Positions 11,674 to 17,952 of a stretch of 64,000 nucleotides of DNA are shown here, in pieces. Under the pieces are notes generated by a model. That model had not been told where the DNA came from. It worked only from the letters and a program-made list of their open reading frames with translations, and ran no database searches. Origin of the DNA: Nonomuraea sp. SBT364 (GTDB lineage: Bacteria; Actinomycetota; Actinomycetes; Streptosporangiales; Streptosporangiaceae). A program made the position numbers and the translations under genes. The stretch is from assembly GCF_001083785.1 (NCBI RefSeq), contig NZ_LAVL01000039.1, positions 1 through 64,000 on the forward strand. The letters run 5' to 3'. How positions within the stretch are numbered: the stretch's first letter is position 1; every line of letters starts with the position of its first letter.

Positions 11674-12729
11674 GTGATCACTCCGGTCACCCAGGGCGCC
11701 GGGATCGCGCGGATCGTACGGATCGGGGTGGCGGTCGCGATCGGCGGCGCGCTGGCGCTGTCCGTGGTGCCGCTCGGGCTGCACACACTGGCCGGCTGCG
11801 CCGTGCTCGACCTGGGCTGTCCCCCGCGGGAGCCACGCGGGCGGCTCCCGGAGCTGACCCGGCTGACGCCCGTGGAGGTGGCGCTGAGCGGCGGTTACGT
11901 GGCGCTCGGCGACTCCTACTCCTCCGGCGAGGGCGTCTACGAGAGCGAGCAGGCGCCGGCCGGCGAGGGCGCGGCGCGCTGCCACCGCTCCCAGGGCTCC
12001 TACGCGCCGCAGGTGGCGGGCGCGCACGCCTTCGGCGGCGGCGCCGGCTTCTGGGCCTGCAGCGGCGCCACCACCGGCCAGCTCCTGCGCGGACAGTACG
12101 GGCACGCGCCGCAGGTCAGCCGGGTGACGGCGGAGACGACCCTGGTGACGCTGAGCATCGGCGGCAACGACGCCGGTTTCGCCCCGGTGCTGACCGAGTG
12201 CATCGCCAAGCTGCCGTGGTCATCGGCATGCGTCGACCAGGACGCCGAGGTACGGCGGCGGATCGAGGAGCTGCGGCCCCGGCTGCGCGAGGTGCTCGCC
12301 CAGATCCGGGCGCGGGCGCCGCGGGCGCGGGTGATCGTGCTCGGCTACCCCCGGCCGTTCCCCGCCGAGCCGTCGAAGGGCGTCACCAACCTCTCGGTCA
12401 CCGACCAGCGCTGGCTCAACGGCGTGACCCGGCGGCTCAACGACGTGGTGGGAGCGGTGGCGCGGGAGTTCGAGCAGCTGATCACCGCGTTCGGCGCGCC
12501 GGGGAGCGTGGAGTACGTGGACGCCTACGACGCCTTCGACGGGCACGAGGTGGGCCGGCCGCGCCCGTACCTGAACGGGCTGGTCGTGGACCTGGACGAG
12601 CTGACCGTCAACGCGCGCAGCTTCCACCCCACCGCCGACGGCTACCGGCGGTTCGCCGGCCTGGTCAACGAGCGCATCGTCGCCGGGCCCGGCCGCCCGA
12701 TGAACGACTTCCGCCTCACACCGCCCTGA
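11674..12729 (+). CDS. Membrane-anchored SGNH/GDSL hydrolase
   Basis: An extracytoplasmic SGNH-fold esterase/lipase. From GTG 11674 it has 351 residues: a hydrophobic signal anchor (about 15-38), then block I GDSYSSGEG (79-87, nucleophile Ser81), block III GGND in SIGGNDAGF, and block V SFHPTADGY with the catalytic His. The catalytic residues are therefore complete. Two cysteines in the anchor-proximal segment and later pairs may form disulfides, as in the Streptomyces secreted SGNH enzymes. The frame stays open upstream to 11539, and a CTG at 11578 has the best ribosome site, which would add 32 basic residues before the anchor. The GTG start is the conservative choice. The substrate is unknown. 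Confidence 0.85.
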   Translation: MITPVTQGAGIARIVRIGVAVAIGGALALSVVPLGLHTLAGCAVLDLGCPPREPRGRLPELTRLTPVEVALSGGYVALGDSYSSGEGVYESEQAPAGEGAARCHRSQGSYAPQVAGAHAFGGGAGFWACSGATTGQLLRGQYGHAPQVSRVTAETTLVTLSIGGNDAGFAPVLTECIAKLPWSSACVDQDAEVRRRIEELRPRLREVLAQIRARAPRARVIVLGYPRPFPAEPSKGVTNLSVTDQRWLNGVTRRLNDVVGAVAREFEQLITAFGAPGSVEYVDAYDAFDGHEVGRPRPYLNGLVVDLDELTVNARSFHPTADGYRRFAGLVNERIVAGPGRPMNDFRLTPP

Positions 12730-12831: not shown

Positions 12832-13692
12832 CTACTGGCGGGCGCGTTCCTCGGCGAGGTGGAGGCCGGCCTCGATGATCGCGTTCATGACGGGGGCCAG
12901 GCGGGCCTCGCCGAGCTCGGGGGCGCGCTGGGCCATCCGGGTCACCAGGGCGCGCTCGCGGGCCAGGTCGCGGCCCGCGAAGCCGCCCACCGGCTTGAGG
13001 CGCTGCACGATGCCGGCCAGCGCGGCACGGCGTTCCAGCAGGGTGGCCAGGGCGGCGTCGACCCGGTCGATCGCCTGCCGGCAGTCGGCCAGCGTGCCCG
13101 GCGCCTCGGGACGCAGCAGCGCGCCGACCAGCGTCACGGCCTCCTCGGCCTGCCTCCGGTCATCCGGGGCGTCGTCCACGATCAGCCCGTCGGCCCCCGC
13201 GGCCACGGCCGCCGCACCCAACCCCGCGTCGAGGGCGCCGGCATCTCCGGACAGATCGGCGAGGACGGGCAGGCCGGACGCCTCCCTGGCGGCCCGCATC
13301 AGCCCCAGGTCGGCGCTCTCGCAGAGGATGACCTGGTCGTTGCCCTCGGCGGCGACGTAGCCGGCCACCCCCAGCCACTCCTCCAGCGACGCCGACGGGC
13401 GGCGCTCCACCACCACGGGCAGGCCCAGCGCGGCCACCGCGCGCACCAGCGGGATGTCACGCGTCCACGCCGACCCGACCACCACGCCACGGGCCAGCGA
13501 CGCGATCGCGGGCAGGTCGCCGGCGCCGGCGGGCTCGACGAGGGTGACCCCGTCCCGCAGCCGCTCGAAGGCGTCCCCGTCACGCCCGCCGCGCTCACGC
13601 AGGCTCACCCGGTCGCTGATCACCACGGCGGGGCCCTCGCCCACGCGCAGCCCGCCCAGCGCGACCACGTGCCGTTCCAAGGTCGATGACAT
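12832..13692 (-). CDS. Degenerate DAHP-synthase-like barrel fused to chorismate mutase (AroQ type)
   Basis: A 286-residue cytosolic protein in two parts. Residues about 15-193 align by eye with the C-terminal two-thirds of type I-beta DAHP synthases: LPVVVERR (91-98) sits where PVLLKRG is expected, followed by EEWL, AEGNDQVILCES and GADGLIVDD. The catalytic Lys, the PCSVE metal-Cys motif, the KPRTSP loop and the DPSH metal-His are all missing or changed (DLSGD at 146-150), so the barrel should not make DAHP. Residues 200-286 are an AroQ chorismate mutase with Arg205, Arg221 or Arg222, Lys233, Asp242 and Arg245-Glu246. The position of E. coli Gln88 appears to be Ala or Glu. The predicted reaction is chorismate to prephenate, the branch to Phe and Tyr. 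The start is ATG 13692, with GGGGAG upstream. It is preceded by a leader peptide and terminator. Confidence 0.75.
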   Translation of the reverse strand: MSSTLERHVVALGGLRVGEGPAVVISDRVSLRERGGRDGDAFERLRDGVTLVEPAGAGDLPAIASLARGVVVGSAWTRDIPLVRAVAALGLPVVVERRPSASLEEWLGVAGYVAAEGNDQVILCESADLGLMRAAREASGLPVLADLSGDAGALDAGLGAAAVAAGADGLIVDDAPDDRRQAEEAVTLVGALLRPEAPGTLADCRQAIDRVDAALATLLERRAALAGIVQRLKPVGGFAGRDLARERALVTRMAQRAPELGEARLAPVMNAIIEAGLHLAEERARQ

Positions 13693-13740
13693 CTCGGCTC
13701 CCCAATCGGCCGGCTCTTCTGGAACCGGCGGAAAAACCAA

Positions 13741-13768
13741 AAAGGCAGAGACCAGGCGTCTCTGCCTT
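13741..13768 (-). terminator. Intrinsic terminator in the leader of the chorismate mutase fusion (attenuator)
   Basis: On the minus strand AAGGCAGAGA (13768-13759) pairs perfectly with TCTCTGCCTT (13751-13742) around a seven-base loop. TTT, GG and TTTTT follow, a classic U-rich release tract that is rare in this GC-rich DNA. No gene on this strand ends upstream, because the neighbour is a divergent kinase. The only transcript it can stop is the leader of the chorismate mutase fusion, which marks it as an attenuator. Confidence 0.72.
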
Positions 13769-13789
13769 CGTGCCGACTCCAGGTGGTCG

Positions 13790-13846
13790 CTAGCTGACGA
13801 CCGGCCCTCCCGGAGCCGGCTCGGTAAACGCGTAGCGACAAGTCAT
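13790..13846 (-). CDS. Putative 18-residue leader peptide MTCRYAFTEPAPGGPVVS
   Basis: An 18-codon reading frame from ATG 13846 to TAG 13790, 22 bases before the terminator stem of the chorismate mutase fusion gene. It contains one Tyr (TAC) and one Phe (TTT) codon close together, with low-GC codons ACT, TGT and TTT that are unusual here. The bases GTCGCTA over the Cys-Arg-Tyr codons are complementary to TAGCGAC at the stop codon. A ribosome stalled at Tyr or Phe would block that pairing. No Shine-Dalgarno is seen. A TAAAGT -10 box six bases upstream suggests leaderless translation. Single Tyr and Phe codons are weaker than the runs in classical leader peptides, so this is a candidate only. 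Confidence 0.45.
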   Translation of the reverse strand: MTCRYAFTEPAPGGPVVS

Positions 13847-13852
13847 GTAGGA

Positions 13853-13858
13853 ACTTTA
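13853..13858 (-). promoter_or_regulatory. -10 box for the leader of the chorismate mutase fusion
   Basis: TAAAGT on the minus strand followed by six bases and the leader-peptide ATG. The -35 region is weak. The geometry equals that of the other leaderless candidates in this window. Confidence 0.4.
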
Positions 13859-13980
13859 CACCCGTCCTTCCACCTGCCGGGACATCGTTCCCGAATGGTG
13901 GACTGGCCTTCCGGCGAGTCGCCGTTGATCCGCGCCTATGGGAGTATTTCTTGGCCGAGAGGGAGGGTTTGAGGCCGTTG

Positions 13981-16092
13981 ATGTCGGATCGCAAGCAGGA
14001 CGGACGCCGCATCGCCGGTCGTTACCACCTGCAGGAACCCATCGGCAAGGGCGGGATGGGCATTGTCTGGCGTGCTCATGACGAACTCCTTGACCGCACC
14101 GTCGCTGTCAAGGAAGTCAGGTACGCCGCCGCCCTGGGTGACGAGGTGCAGCTGCTCAACCGGCGCACGATGCGTGAGGCGCGGGCGGCGGCCAGGTTCG
14201 AGCACCCGAACGTGATCGTCGTGCACGACGTGATCGAGGAGGACGACCGCCCCTGGATCGTCATGCAGCTCGTCCCGTCGCGCTCGCTCGGCGCGGTGAT
14301 CAAGCAGGACGGGCCGCTGCCCCCCGAGAGGGTGGCGGAGATCGGCCTGGCGGTCCTCGACGCGCTGCACCGCGCGCACGAGTCCGGCGTGCTGCACCGC
14401 GACGTCAAGCCCGAGAACGTGCTGCTGGCCGACGACGGCCGGGTGGTGCTGACCGACTTCGGCATCGCCACGCTGGAGACCGAGACGCAGCTCACCGTGA
14501 CGGGGCTGGCGGGCACGCCGGCGTTCATCGCGCCGGAGCGGCTCAAGGGGCTGCCCGCGCGGCGCGAGTCGGACCTGTGGTCGCTCGGCGCCACGCTCTA
14601 CACCGCCGTGGAGGGCCGCTCGCCGCATGAGCGCGGGATGGCGCTGGCCACCATGCACGCGGTGCTGACCGACGAGCCCGACCCGGCTCCGCACGCGGGG
14701 CCGCTCGCGCCGGTGATCGACGGCCTGCTGGCCAAGGAGCCGGTCCAGCGGCTCACGTACGAGGAGACGACGCGGCTGCTGCGCCGGATCAGCCAGTCCG
14801 GCGGCCGGCCGGCGCCGGTCCCCCGCGCCGACCCGCCGACGCGGGTGCAGCCGGCGGTCGAGGACGACATGCCGACGGACCCGAACCTGGCGCCCGTCCG
14901 GCCGGCCCAGCCCGCCCACCCCGCGCGGCCGTCGCGGCCGTCGCGGCCCGCGTCGTTCGCCGAGACCGGCGCGCGCTTCCCCGAGCCGGGCGCGCGCCGT
15001 CCGCGGAGCGACGCCCGCACCCCGGAGACCCGCGCCCGCGACGAGGAGCGCGACGCCCGCTACCCCCGCGACCGCTCCCGCCAGGAGAGCGACGCCCGCT
15101 ACGCCGAGGGCCGCTCCCGCCAGGAGGGCGACGCCCGCTACCCGGACAGCCGCTCCCGCCAGGAAGGCGACTCACGCTACGCCGAGGGCCGCTCCCGCCA
15201 GGAGGGTGAGTCGCGGTACGCGGAGGGCCGTGCTCGTCCGGAGGGGGAGTCGCGGTATCCGGAGACCCGCGCCCGCCGCTCGGAGGCCGACTCGCTCTTC
15301 GGGGAGGCCGCCGACCGGTTCGGGCAGGCGACCGCCGACCCGGCGACCGGCGACCCGACGCGGGAGGGCGGCTCCGACAGGCGGCAGGCCGTGCCCGTGG
15401 TCGTCGCCGTCGTCGCCGTCGTGCTGATCGCGGCCGTCGGCGGCTATCTCGGCCTGCGCTCCACGGCCGACGACGAGGCTCCGCAGAAGCAGCGGACCGC
15501 CGCCACGGACACCACCGCCTCCACCGGCGCCTCCGAGTCACCCTCGGAGCCGTCGGGGCCGTCGCCCGAGTCGCCGGCCGCCACCCCGGCCGGCCGCCCC
15601 TCCCCCACCCCCACCGAGACGGAGGAGAAGGCGGAGTCCGCGGCCCTGCCCGACGGCTGGAAGCTGTACAAGGACAAGAAGCTCGACTTCACCATGGGGC
15701 TGCCCAAGGGCTGGAAGGAGTACAAGCGCGAGGGCAGCCAGGTCTTCTTCCGCGGCCCCGGCGCCGCGTCCAACGCCTTCGTGTCGGTCGACCGGGCGTC
15801 CAACCCGGGCTCGGACCCGTACAAGGACTGGAAGAAGCAGGAGAAGAGCGCCCGCTACGGCTTCGGCGGCTACGAGCTCCTCGGCATCAAGAAGGTCGAC
15901 TTCCAGAAGGCCGCCGCCGACTGGGACTTCACCTGGCGCACCAACACGGGCGTGACGCGGGTGCGCAACCGCGGGTTCGTCACCGAGAACGGCCGCGGCT
16001 ACGCGATCTACTGGCACAACCTCAACAGCCGCTGGAAGAAGGACTACCACTTCTTCGAGACGTTCTGCGCGACCTTCAAACCCGACCAGTAG
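13981..16092 (+). CDS. Transmembrane Ser/Thr protein kinase with extracytoplasmic sensor domain
   Basis: A 703-residue PknB-like receptor kinase. The cytoplasmic kinase domain has the glycine loop GKGGMG (22-27), Lys44, the catalytic HRDVKPEN from about residue 139, DFG, and SDLWSLGATLY. A proline- and arginine-rich juxtamembrane region follows, including five 13-residue repeats (RSRQEGDARYAEG type). One membrane helix lies at about 471-492, and then a Ser/Thr/Pro-rich stalk. From about 556 to the end is a roughly 150-residue domain (GWKLYKDKKLDFTMGLPKGW...) shared with the next kinase. It has no PASTA repeats. ATG 13981 has GAGG six bases upstream. A TTG at 13951, with GGGAG upstream, is an alternative adding ten residues. 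Partners and ligand are unknown. Confidence 0.88.
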   Translation: MSDRKQDGRRIAGRYHLQEPIGKGGMGIVWRAHDELLDRTVAVKEVRYAAALGDEVQLLNRRTMREARAAARFEHPNVIVVHDVIEEDDRPWIVMQLVPSRSLGAVIKQDGPLPPERVAEIGLAVLDALHRAHESGVLHRDVKPENVLLADDGRVVLTDFGIATLETETQLTVTGLAGTPAFIAPERLKGLPARRESDLWSLGATLYTAVEGRSPHERGMALATMHAVLTDEPDPAPHAGPLAPVIDGLLAKEPVQRLTYEETTRLLRRISQSGGRPAPVPRADPPTRVQPAVEDDMPTDPNLAPVRPAQPAHPARPSRPSRPASFAETGARFPEPGARRPRSDARTPETRARDEERDARYPRDRSRQESDARYAEGRSRQEGDARYPDSRSRQEGDSRYAEGRSRQEGESRYAEGRARPEGESRYPETRARRSEADSLFGEAADRFGQATADPATGDPTREGGSDRRQAVPVVVAVVAVVLIAAVGGYLGLRSTADDEAPQKQRTAATDTTASTGASESPSEPSGPSPESPAATPAGRPSPTPTETEEKAESAALPDGWKLYKDKKLDFTMGLPKGWKEYKREGSQVFFRGPGAASNAFVSVDRASNPGSDPYKDWKKQEKSARYGFGGYELLGIKKVDFQKAAADWDFTWRTNTGVTRVRNRGFVTENGRGYAIYWHNLNSRWKKDYHFFETFCATFKPDQ
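15073..15267 (+). repeat. Five tandem 39-bp repeats inside the first kinase gene
   Basis: Units begin at 15073, 15112, 15151, 15190 and 15229. The last two are diverged. Each encodes 13 residues of the type RSRQEGDARYAEG, just on the cytoplasmic side of the membrane helix. In-frame unit length means copy-number change would not break the gene. Confidence 0.85.
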
Positions 16093-16101: not shown

Positions 16102-17952
16102 ATGGACAGGCAGGTCGGCAACCGCTACCGCCTCATCGAGCCCCTCGGCGAGGGCGGCATGGGCGTGGTCTGGCGCGCTCACGACCAGTTGCTCGACCGC
16201 ACGGTGGCGATCAAGGAGGTCCGCTACACCGGCGTCGGCGAAGCCCAGCGTGCCGCGCTCAACCGGCGCACCATCCGGGAGGCGCGGGCGGCGGGGCGGC
16301 TCGACCACCCCTCGGTCGTGGTCGTCCACGACGTCGTCGAGGAGGACGGGCGGCCGTGGATCGTCATGCAGCTCGTGCGCTCCCACTCGCTCGCCGAGAC
16401 GATCCGCGCCGAGGGGCCGCTGCCGGTGACGCGGGTGGCGGCGATCGGCGCCCGGGTCCTCGACGCGCTGCGCGCCGCGCACGCCACCGGGGTGCTGCAC
16501 CGCGACGTCAAGCCCGAGAACGTGCTGCTGGCCGACGACGGCCGGGTGGTGCTGACCGACTTCGGCATCGCCACCGTGGAGACCGACGCCGGTCTGACGG
16601 CGACCGGCGGACTGGTGGGCACGCCCGCGTACATGCCGCCGGAGCGCCTCAACGGCGAGGCCGCGCGGCCCGAGTCGGACCTGTGGTCGCTGGGGGCCAC
16701 CCTGTACGCGGCGGTGGAGGGCGCGCCGCCGTACCGGCGCGACTCCTGGGCGGCCACGGTGGCGGCGATCCTGCGCGATCCGCCGGCGCCGCCGTCGCAC
16801 GCCGGCCCCCTCGCCCCGGTCATCACCGGCCTGCTGTCCCGCGACCCGGGCGCCCGTATCCCCGCCGCCGAGGCGGCCCGCCTCCTGGCGGCCATCGCCG
16901 CGCCGCTCCCGGGGATGTCGCACTTCGGCGACGCGCCCTTCCCCGGAGGTTCGCAGGAGAAGGCGCCGCCCGCCTACCGCCGGGAGACGCCCCCCGCCGG
17001 AGTCGCCACACGCCCCGGCGCCATGCCCTCCCCCGGCGAATGGGGCCCTCCAGCGGGGGCACCGGGCTACGGCGCGGCGATGGACGGGGCTCGTACCGAC
17101 GTCCCCGCGGGAGCGAGCGGGGCCGTCCGGGCTGGTGACACGGTGGGTGTGCCGGGGAGGCGGCGGTGGGCCGGGGTCGGACTCGCCGTGCTCGTGGCGG
17201 CGGCCGTGGGCGCGGGCGGCGTGCTGGTGGTCATGAACCTGGCGTCGCCGGGGACGGACGTCGCCGCCCCCGGCCCGTCGGCCGACGCGTCCGCCGCCGG
17301 CCGGCCCGGCGGCACCCCGACGGGACGAACCGGCGAGCCGACCAGTGGCCCGACCAGTGGCCCGACCAGTGGCCCGGCCAGTGGCCCGGCCAGTGGCCCG
17401 ACCGGCGACCCCACGGCGACCGACGGAGGCCCGAGCACCGGCCCGGCGACCACCCCCAGTGGTCCCGCGCGGTCGCCCGGGAGCGCGCGCCCGCCCGCCG
17501 GGTGGCGGACGTATCGTGACGCCGCCGGCGGGTTCTCCATCGCCATGCCGAAGGGCTGGCGGGCGGTCAAGCACGCGACGAGGGACAGCGTGACCCTGTC
17601 GGGTCCCGGCACCGCCGGAACGATGATCGTGGAGTGGACCGTTCCCCGGACGCGGCATGCCACCCCCGAAGCCCACTGGCGAGCCCTGGAGCGGGAGATC
17701 CGGGACAAGGGCGAGTTCCCCGGCTACCGGCGGGTCGGCATCCGCCCGCTCACCTACCTGGGCGTCCCGGCGGCCGACTGGGAGTTCACCCGGCCGCGCG
17801 AGGGCACGCTGATCCACGTGGTGAACCGGGGCTTCCGCACCGCCGACGGCCGCCCGTTCGCCCTCTACTGGGAGACCGACCACGCCCGCTGGACGCGGGA
17901 CCGGCACTACGCCGACGCGTTCCTGCGCACGTTCCGCCCGGTGGCCCGGTGA
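16102..17952 (+). CDS. Transmembrane Ser/Thr protein kinase, paralogue of the upstream kinase
   Basis: 616 residues with the same plan as the kinase directly upstream: glycine loop GEGGMGVVW near the N-terminus, HRDVKPEN from about residue 133, DFG, SDLWSLGATLY, a proline-rich linker, and one membrane helix at about 356-380. A TSGP/ASGP repeat stalk (about 414-433) leads to an extracytoplasmic domain from about residue 466 (PAGWRTYRDAAGGFSIAMPKGW). The terminal domain matches the upstream kinase in the order of conserved tryptophans, the AADW motif and the NRGF motif, so both may sense related ligands. The fold may resemble PsbP/LpqN-type domains, judging from the GFSIAMPKGW start, but that is inference. 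Its TGA overlaps the GTG of the AraC-type gene by three bases (GTGA). Confidence 0.88.
   Translation: MDRQVGNRYRLIEPLGEGGMGVVWRAHDQLLDRTVAIKEVRYTGVGEAQRAALNRRTIREARAAGRLDHPSVVVVHDVVEEDGRPWIVMQLVRSHSLAETIRAEGPLPVTRVAAIGARVLDALRAAHATGVLHRDVKPENVLLADDGRVVLTDFGIATVETDAGLTATGGLVGTPAYMPPERLNGEAARPESDLWSLGATLYAAVEGAPPYRRDSWAATVAAILRDPPAPPSHAGPLAPVITGLLSRDPGARIPAAEAARLLAAIAAPLPGMSHFGDAPFPGGSQEKAPPAYRRETPPAGVATRPGAMPSPGEWGPPAGAPGYGAAMDGARTDVPAGASGAVRAGDTVGVPGRRRWAGVGLAVLVAAAVGAGGVLVVMNLASPGTDVAAPGPSADASAAGRPGGTPTGRTGEPTSGPTSGPTSGPASGPASGPTGDPTATDGGPSTGPATTPSGPARSPGSARPPAGWRTYRDAAGGFSIAMPKGWRAVKHATRDSVTLSGPGTAGTMIVEWTVPRTRHATPEAHWRALEREIRDKGEFPGYRRVGIRPLTYLGVPAADWEFTRPREGTLIHVVNRGFRTADGRPFALYWETDHARWTRDRHYADAFLRTFRPVAR
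17341..17400 (+). repeat. Five tandem 12-bp repeats inside the second kinase gene
   Basis: Three copies of ACCAGTGGCCCG and two of GCCAGTGGCCCG in direct tandem encode TSGP/ASGP repeats. These form a flexible Ser/Thr/Pro stalk between the membrane helix and the sensor domain. Confidence 0.9.

Follow-up and report, generated by a model that had tools for sequence, protein, structure and literature searches.

The window, the whole 64,000-nucleotide stretch of Nonomuraea sp. SBT364 DNA analyzed here, carries a gene for a 286-residue protein in which a degenerate type I-beta DAHP synthase (DAHPS) barrel is followed by an AroQ chorismate mutase (CM) domain (Table 1). DAHPS stands at the entrance of the shikimate pathway, and chorismate mutase at its fork to phenylalanine and tyrosine. 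The open reading frame starts with an ATG at 13692 and ends with the stop codon 12834-12832; it appears to stand alone. A structured leader RNA precedes it. The neighboring Ser/Thr kinase gene is itself adjoined by a second Ser/Thr kinase gene (16102-17952, plus strand).

Table 1. The fusion gene, its leader and its neighbors, in window positions
Feature	Positions	Strand	Basis or remark
Fusion gene, 286 aa	12832..13692 (incl. stop codon)	minus	translation and aligned relatives
Degenerate type I-beta DAHPS barrel	13108..13692	minus	residues 1-195
AroQ chorismate mutase domain	12835..13095	minus	residues 200-286; Pfam CM_2 and three predicted helices
GDSL hydrolase gene	11674-12729		convergent with fusion gene
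Ser/Thr kinase gene	13951-16092	plus	divergent from fusion gene
Structured leader RNA, attenuator-like, 134 bases	13720..13853	minus	sole match of model R1 in the window genome
Leader mini-ORF MTCRYAFTEPAPGGPVVS, then stop	13790..13846	minus	sequence and leader peptides of 84 loci
Helix P1 (13820-13809 with 13783-13772)	13772..13820	minus	excludes a local hairpin sharing its 5' strand
Terminator-like hairpin 13767-13742, then T-rich run	13732..13767	minus	9 pairs, 6 changed on both sides

Two domains and their kinship

The C-terminal domain has both the CM_2 match and the three-helix layout of an AroQ mutase: Pfam CM_2 matched residues 204-277 (E 2.9e-10; 40.6 bits against a cut-off of 27), and helices were predicted at residues 201-236, 243-256 and 261-285. 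In the front half, Pfam DAHP_synth_1 matched residues 62-181 with 25.6 bits, barely above its cut-off of 25.5. Comparison with PDB sequences by phmmer placed type I-beta DAHPS at the top (3nvt, 8.1e-13; 1rzm, 4.3e-11). KDO8P synthase came below DAHPS in the same search, at E 0.01 and weaker; it ties with DAHPS on fold, while the sequence favors DAHPS. The type I-beta layout that a preliminary description had read in residues 91-125 is present (LPVVV at 91-95, EEW at 104-106, AEGN at 115-118 and ILCE at 122-125).

That description had named a structure prediction without a TIM barrel as grounds for its own rejection. A barrel was predicted in two structure models, one of them built from an alignment without any DAHPS row. 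Foldseek found both models nearest to T. maritima DAHPS, and VIA-align likewise for the better one; the models are of monomers, and the fold search scarcely covered the mutase part. Helix alpha1 is missing from the modeled barrel, in which strand residues 23-25 and 28-30, read as beta1 and beta2, are directly consecutive. Apart from this helix, the front half combines the (beta/alpha)8 barrel with sequence kinship to type I-beta DAHPS, and the protein follows the barrel-CM order of bifunctional DAH7PS-CM enzymes.

Relatives also speak to the origin of the barrel. Two loci from another taxonomic family (L148, L150) have QRG in place of the KRG of DAHPS, and three (L238, L244, L250) still have the AGP motif at beta1, which supports descent from DAHPS. 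In a midpoint-rooted tree, thirteen barrels (12 of the 85 fusions scored below, and L296) formed one clade against 65 other rows with a support of 100. Beside this clade, at a point where the tree program warns that long branches meet, branches L006, a protein from a Dormibacterota MAG in which an intact-looking DAHPS is followed by a CM. The barrel-CM order thus has an example that looks live.

Active-site residues of barrel and mutase

We scored 85 of 113 loci, the window's included, as fusions; the 28 set aside were 24 mutase-only loci, one whose front lies in another frame (L107) and three repeats. The controls were 65 of 76 ordinary DAHPS, after removal of 11 in which no GPC start was detected. 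The metal-binding Cys was found at its aligned column in 0/85 fusions and 65/65 controls, and the same division held for the Lys of KPRTSP, the Arg of GAR and the Lys of KRG (replaced in the fusions by Gln in 39, Glu in 35, Arg in 10 and Ala in one). The row of L253 starts at a contig end, and its first three sites lie outside the data. We take these KPRTSP, GAR and KRG residues to be PEP/E4P ligands. The His of DPSH persists in 5/85 fusions as against 63/65 controls, the Asp of DGxQ in 2/85 and the Arg of KPRTSP in 1/85; at the column of the metal-ligand Glu, Glu is outside the six commonest letters displayed for the fusions, which cover 80 of the 85 rows.

These data extend to a wide family what had been noticed in the single sequence, namely the loss of the PCSVE motif, the KPRTSP loop, the catalytic Lys and the DPSH His. 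A profile search for homologues with the same losses had been suggested as a check, and intact metal ligands in their proper fold positions as a refutation; no intact set of them was recovered in the 85 fusions. Because the ligands for metal, PEP and E4P that define a type I-beta DAHPS were looked for and found wanting, we do not class the family as a DAHP synthase, nor does it have the two intact active sites of a bifunctional DAH7PS-CM; in our reading it behaves as a mutase joined to a partner domain, in the manner of the P. gingivalis DAH7PS-CM. From its sequences, the barrel looks dead as a DAHP synthase across the family.

Four residues of the old site are kept more often: the Arg of KRG (85/85), the Glu of CER (84/85), the Asp of DPSH (55/85) and the Arg of GIR (54/85). 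The near-universal persistence of the first two, while other counted ligands are largely or wholly gone, could mean that the old pocket has acquired a new function, in catalysis or in binding. We consider this very improbable, since the two persisting residues may have no more than a structural part, the first strand is wholly absent in some members, and a Trp (W76) adjoins the position of the lost GAR Arg in all 35 aligned fusions, though not in the wider members L247 and L251.

On the mutase side, R11, R28, K39, D48, R51 and E52 (E. coli numbering) are each kept in 85/85 fusions; the 25 other rows, comprising the 24 mutase-only loci and L107, keep them all save for one D48 to N change. The position of Ser84 is Gly in 85/85 fusions, and that of Gln88 is Ala in 73, Ser in 11 and Pro in one, so that neither the Gln nor the Glu specified there for AroQ is found. 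The earlier statement that the AroQ domain keeps most active-site residues thus holds for the first six and fails at Ser84 and Gln88. L006 likewise has Ala in place of Gln88, whereas L008 and L014, which also carry a CM behind a DAHPS, have Gln there. Its loss could mean weak or different chemistry.

The best evidence in this analysis that the mutase works comes from gene content in two genomes, G060 (100% complete, 4% contaminated) and G061 (97%, 4%). There the fusion is the sole AroQ (CM_2) match, the AroH (CM_1) mutase is absent and prephenate dehydratase is present; the fusion should therefore be their chorismate mutase. In the genus of the window, AroH is present in 53/54 genomes, the window's included, so at home the fusion is not the sole mutase.

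The leader RNA

Upstream of the fusion gene, nhmmer found the leader in 88 of the 113 upstream regions, of which 84 were aligned after removing L092 and three repeats. The alignment revealed several features: firstly, many relatives have a mini-ORF with RYF.F near its start and PAPG.PV behind; secondly, Tyr, Phe or both occur early in most leader peptides, although such codons are few (one Tyr and one Phe in the window's peptide); thirdly, across 44 sequences the leader structure has 98.0% standard pairs, with 12 of 25 pairs changed on both sides, which exceeds all 500 shuffles, a test that, as the tool warns, relatedness alone can beat. The conservation of helix 1 is shared with the peptide, since the two overlap. 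As expected of an attenuator, the terminator is conserved and the helices upstream of it exclude each other; by-eye inspection of the leader revealed no antiterminator competing with the terminator stem. Rfam gave no match for the leader at gathering score.

A search model of the leader, R1, comprises 44 rows, the window's own leader among them. Among 15 chosen genomes, some of which supplied rows of R1 (G060, G061, G030, G197 and G217 did not), ten had one copy each, that of the window genome being the fusion-gene leader; no R1 match was found in G003, G033, G135, G360 or G098. Scanned across the class, R1 matched at 1e-4 in 51/296 genomes, with two or three matches in some genomes of family f21. 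In five genomes (G505, G487, G478, G521, G496) one match lies a few hundred bases upstream of a partial-barrel mutase match. In G030, which has no fusion, the leader of locus L264 (1501-1642, mini-ORF MSLISRFWRYGTAPGGAEVHMR) precedes a gene with a GPCSVHDP motif, and in f21 the leader stood ahead of such genes in 6/6 loci inspected (L280-L285). We take the GPCSVHDP-motif gene to encode a type I-alpha DAHPS.

The placement before type I-alpha-like DAHPS genes ties the fusion gene to aromatic control. A leader that senses Tyr/Phe probably governs expression of the fusion, by way of attenuation. These data suggest an aromatic attenuator class in actinomycetes that extends beyond the fusion gene and, in other families, serves type I-alpha-like DAHPS genes. 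Actinobacterial tryptophan and branched-chain leaders likewise place a short leader peptide before a terminator; unlike them, the leader described here precedes a mutase gene or, elsewhere, a type I-alpha-like DAHPS gene. For the Phe and Tyr operons of the actinobacteria that it studied, PMC1262725 reports no conserved upstream RNA structures.

Stages of barrel loss and possible reasons for keeping the barrel

We surveyed the family at two taxonomic depths. In an order-level search of 345 genomes, a match better than 1e-56 was found in 50 of 54 Nonomuraea genomes, the window's included, among the matches listed. In G019 and G002 the back part alone was matched, near a contig start. No fusion was found in G003, G008, G030 or G033 among the matches listed; these genomes have another AroQ match and AroH. 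In one genome (G015, L107) the fusion is split over two frames, as residues 1-73 and 75-284, by a frameshift or a sequencing error. Counting as fusions matches that start at or before position 60 or come in pieces, and leaving partial forms uncounted, we found fusions in at least 27 of the 70 genera among the matches listed, one of them (g8) in another family.

In a class-level search, 49 of 394 genomes had a match with an E value of at most 1e-27. By query range, these comprised 18 full or near-full fusions (among them G137, starting at 43, G429, starting at 60, and G011 and G160, in two pieces each), 12 partial barrels (match start 121-140) and 19 mutase-only forms (start at 177 or later). 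We guess that the genera labeled g90, g72 and g105 are Actinomadura, Nocardiopsis and Micromonospora. Many actinobacteria carry a chorismate mutase with an apparently dead DAHPS front half, at different stages of loss.

The barrel might be a pure relic, eroding without function while the mutase alone matters. Its erosion is indeed stepwise: the first strand is absent in L105/L106 and the front strands in L188; by eye, a remnant of the last two or three strand-helix units is left in L300-L305 and L307; and the mutase stands alone in L190-L213. L306 has a longer, poorly matching front, and L296, from the same family as these partial forms, has a full barrel. Genus g42 contains both fusions (G104, G105, G107, G108, G109) and near-barrel-less mutases (G106, G110; L190, L191), whose N-terminal helix resembles the last barrel helix. 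Mapped on a mutase tree, the fusion and mutase-only labels need 5 changes, of which the starred branches force 2. Barrel loops also carry variable insertions. Several lineages have reduced the barrel or lack it, so it cannot be a universal requirement, and since barrel-less relatives keep the same mutase residues, the mutase can do without it there.

Set against a pure relic are the persistence of fusion-level matches in the 50 Nonomuraea genomes and the 26 barrel positions up to residue 184 that are invariant across 35 aligned fusions (e.g., E53, P54, W76, D79, E105, W106). So are the substitution ratios: in the 40 closest pairs displayed, which are not independent of each other and 5 of which involve L107, barrel omega ranges over 0.08-0.44 (all below 0.5) and mutase omega over 0.05-0.33, the barrel having the higher value in 36 of 40. 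Over all 3576 pairs, many of them distant, the medians are 0.49 and 0.27. The barrel is therefore constrained, though less than the mutase, and we regard a pure relic as somewhat unlikely.

Comparison with known DAHPS-CM systems suggests what the barrel might still do. The Bacillus/Listeria AroA type (CM-DAHPS, e.g., 3nvt, 5j6f), which gives the best PDB sequence match, likewise joins DAHPS and AroQ covalently; its mutase is N-terminal, whereas that of the fusion family is C-terminal, and its DAHPS part is live. The DAH7PS-CM of P. gingivalis and Prevotella nigrescens has the same order as the fusions, with a barrel at 17-253 followed by CM at 265-356; its domains are interdependent, and when the P. 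gingivalis enzyme is split, the Km of the mutase goes up from 19.1 to 207 uM (PMC12202928). Unlike that type, the fusions tallied all lack the DAHPS site, with a variably eroded barrel, and the models of the window protein lack helix alpha1. The AroQ-delta mutase of M. tuberculosis also lacks a Gln88 counterpart and depends on a type II DAHPS for full activity (PMC7762937). There the complex is non-covalent with a separate DAHPS, and Arg46 stands where the fusion family keeps Lys. No description of a DAHPS-derived dead barrel fused to CM was found in the literature searched, in which subscription journals are thinly covered.

Such mutual effects, in covalent pairs and in complexes (PMC12202928 and PMC7762937), together with the conserved structural core of the barrel, would fit a docking or regulatory module. 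Such a module would join the live I-beta DAHPS of its own cell, or bind an aromatic amino acid, and thereby couple the mutase to the state of the pathway. The window genome does have an ordinary I-beta DAHPS, besides a type II DAHPS. At match level, however, mutase-only genomes also have a DAHPS-like match, which unties the presence of a partner from that of the barrel, and we think a docking module unlikely.

With a probability of roughly 55%, we infer a working, aromatic-regulated mutase under attenuation, descended from a bifunctional DAHPS-CM and retaining its dead barrel as a scaffold. The ancestor would have had a DAHPS barrel in front and the mutase behind. Other DAHP synthases in the genome would have made the chemistry of the barrel redundant, and the ligands for metal, PEP and E4P would then have disappeared from it, together with one helix. 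Because the mutase by then depended on contacts with the barrel for its affinity to the substrate and for the geometry of its dimer, the barrel would have stayed as a built-in scaffold, until later lineages trimmed it to a remnant or dropped it. On balance, we favor retention through such dependence over a mere relic. The preliminary description had envisaged a degenerate barrel kept as a regulatory or structural partner: a DAHPS-derived, ligand-less barrel fused to AroQ is borne out, while for the partner role the evidence is divided, the barrel being constrained in close pairs yet reduced or absent in several lineages.

More tentatively, the dead barrel could be a covalent, built-in activator, taking the part that a live DAHPS plays for the mutase of M. 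tuberculosis and offsetting the missing Gln88. If so, the lineages would show a passage from live fusion to dead scaffold, trimmed remnant and independent mutase. The family bears on why DAHPS and chorismate mutase so often bind or fuse. With a barrel kept in the absence of DAHPS chemistry, the scaffold effect becomes separable from the catalytic effect. Relatives that have the whole barrel, part of it or none offer ready-made constructs for testing why the dead half is kept.
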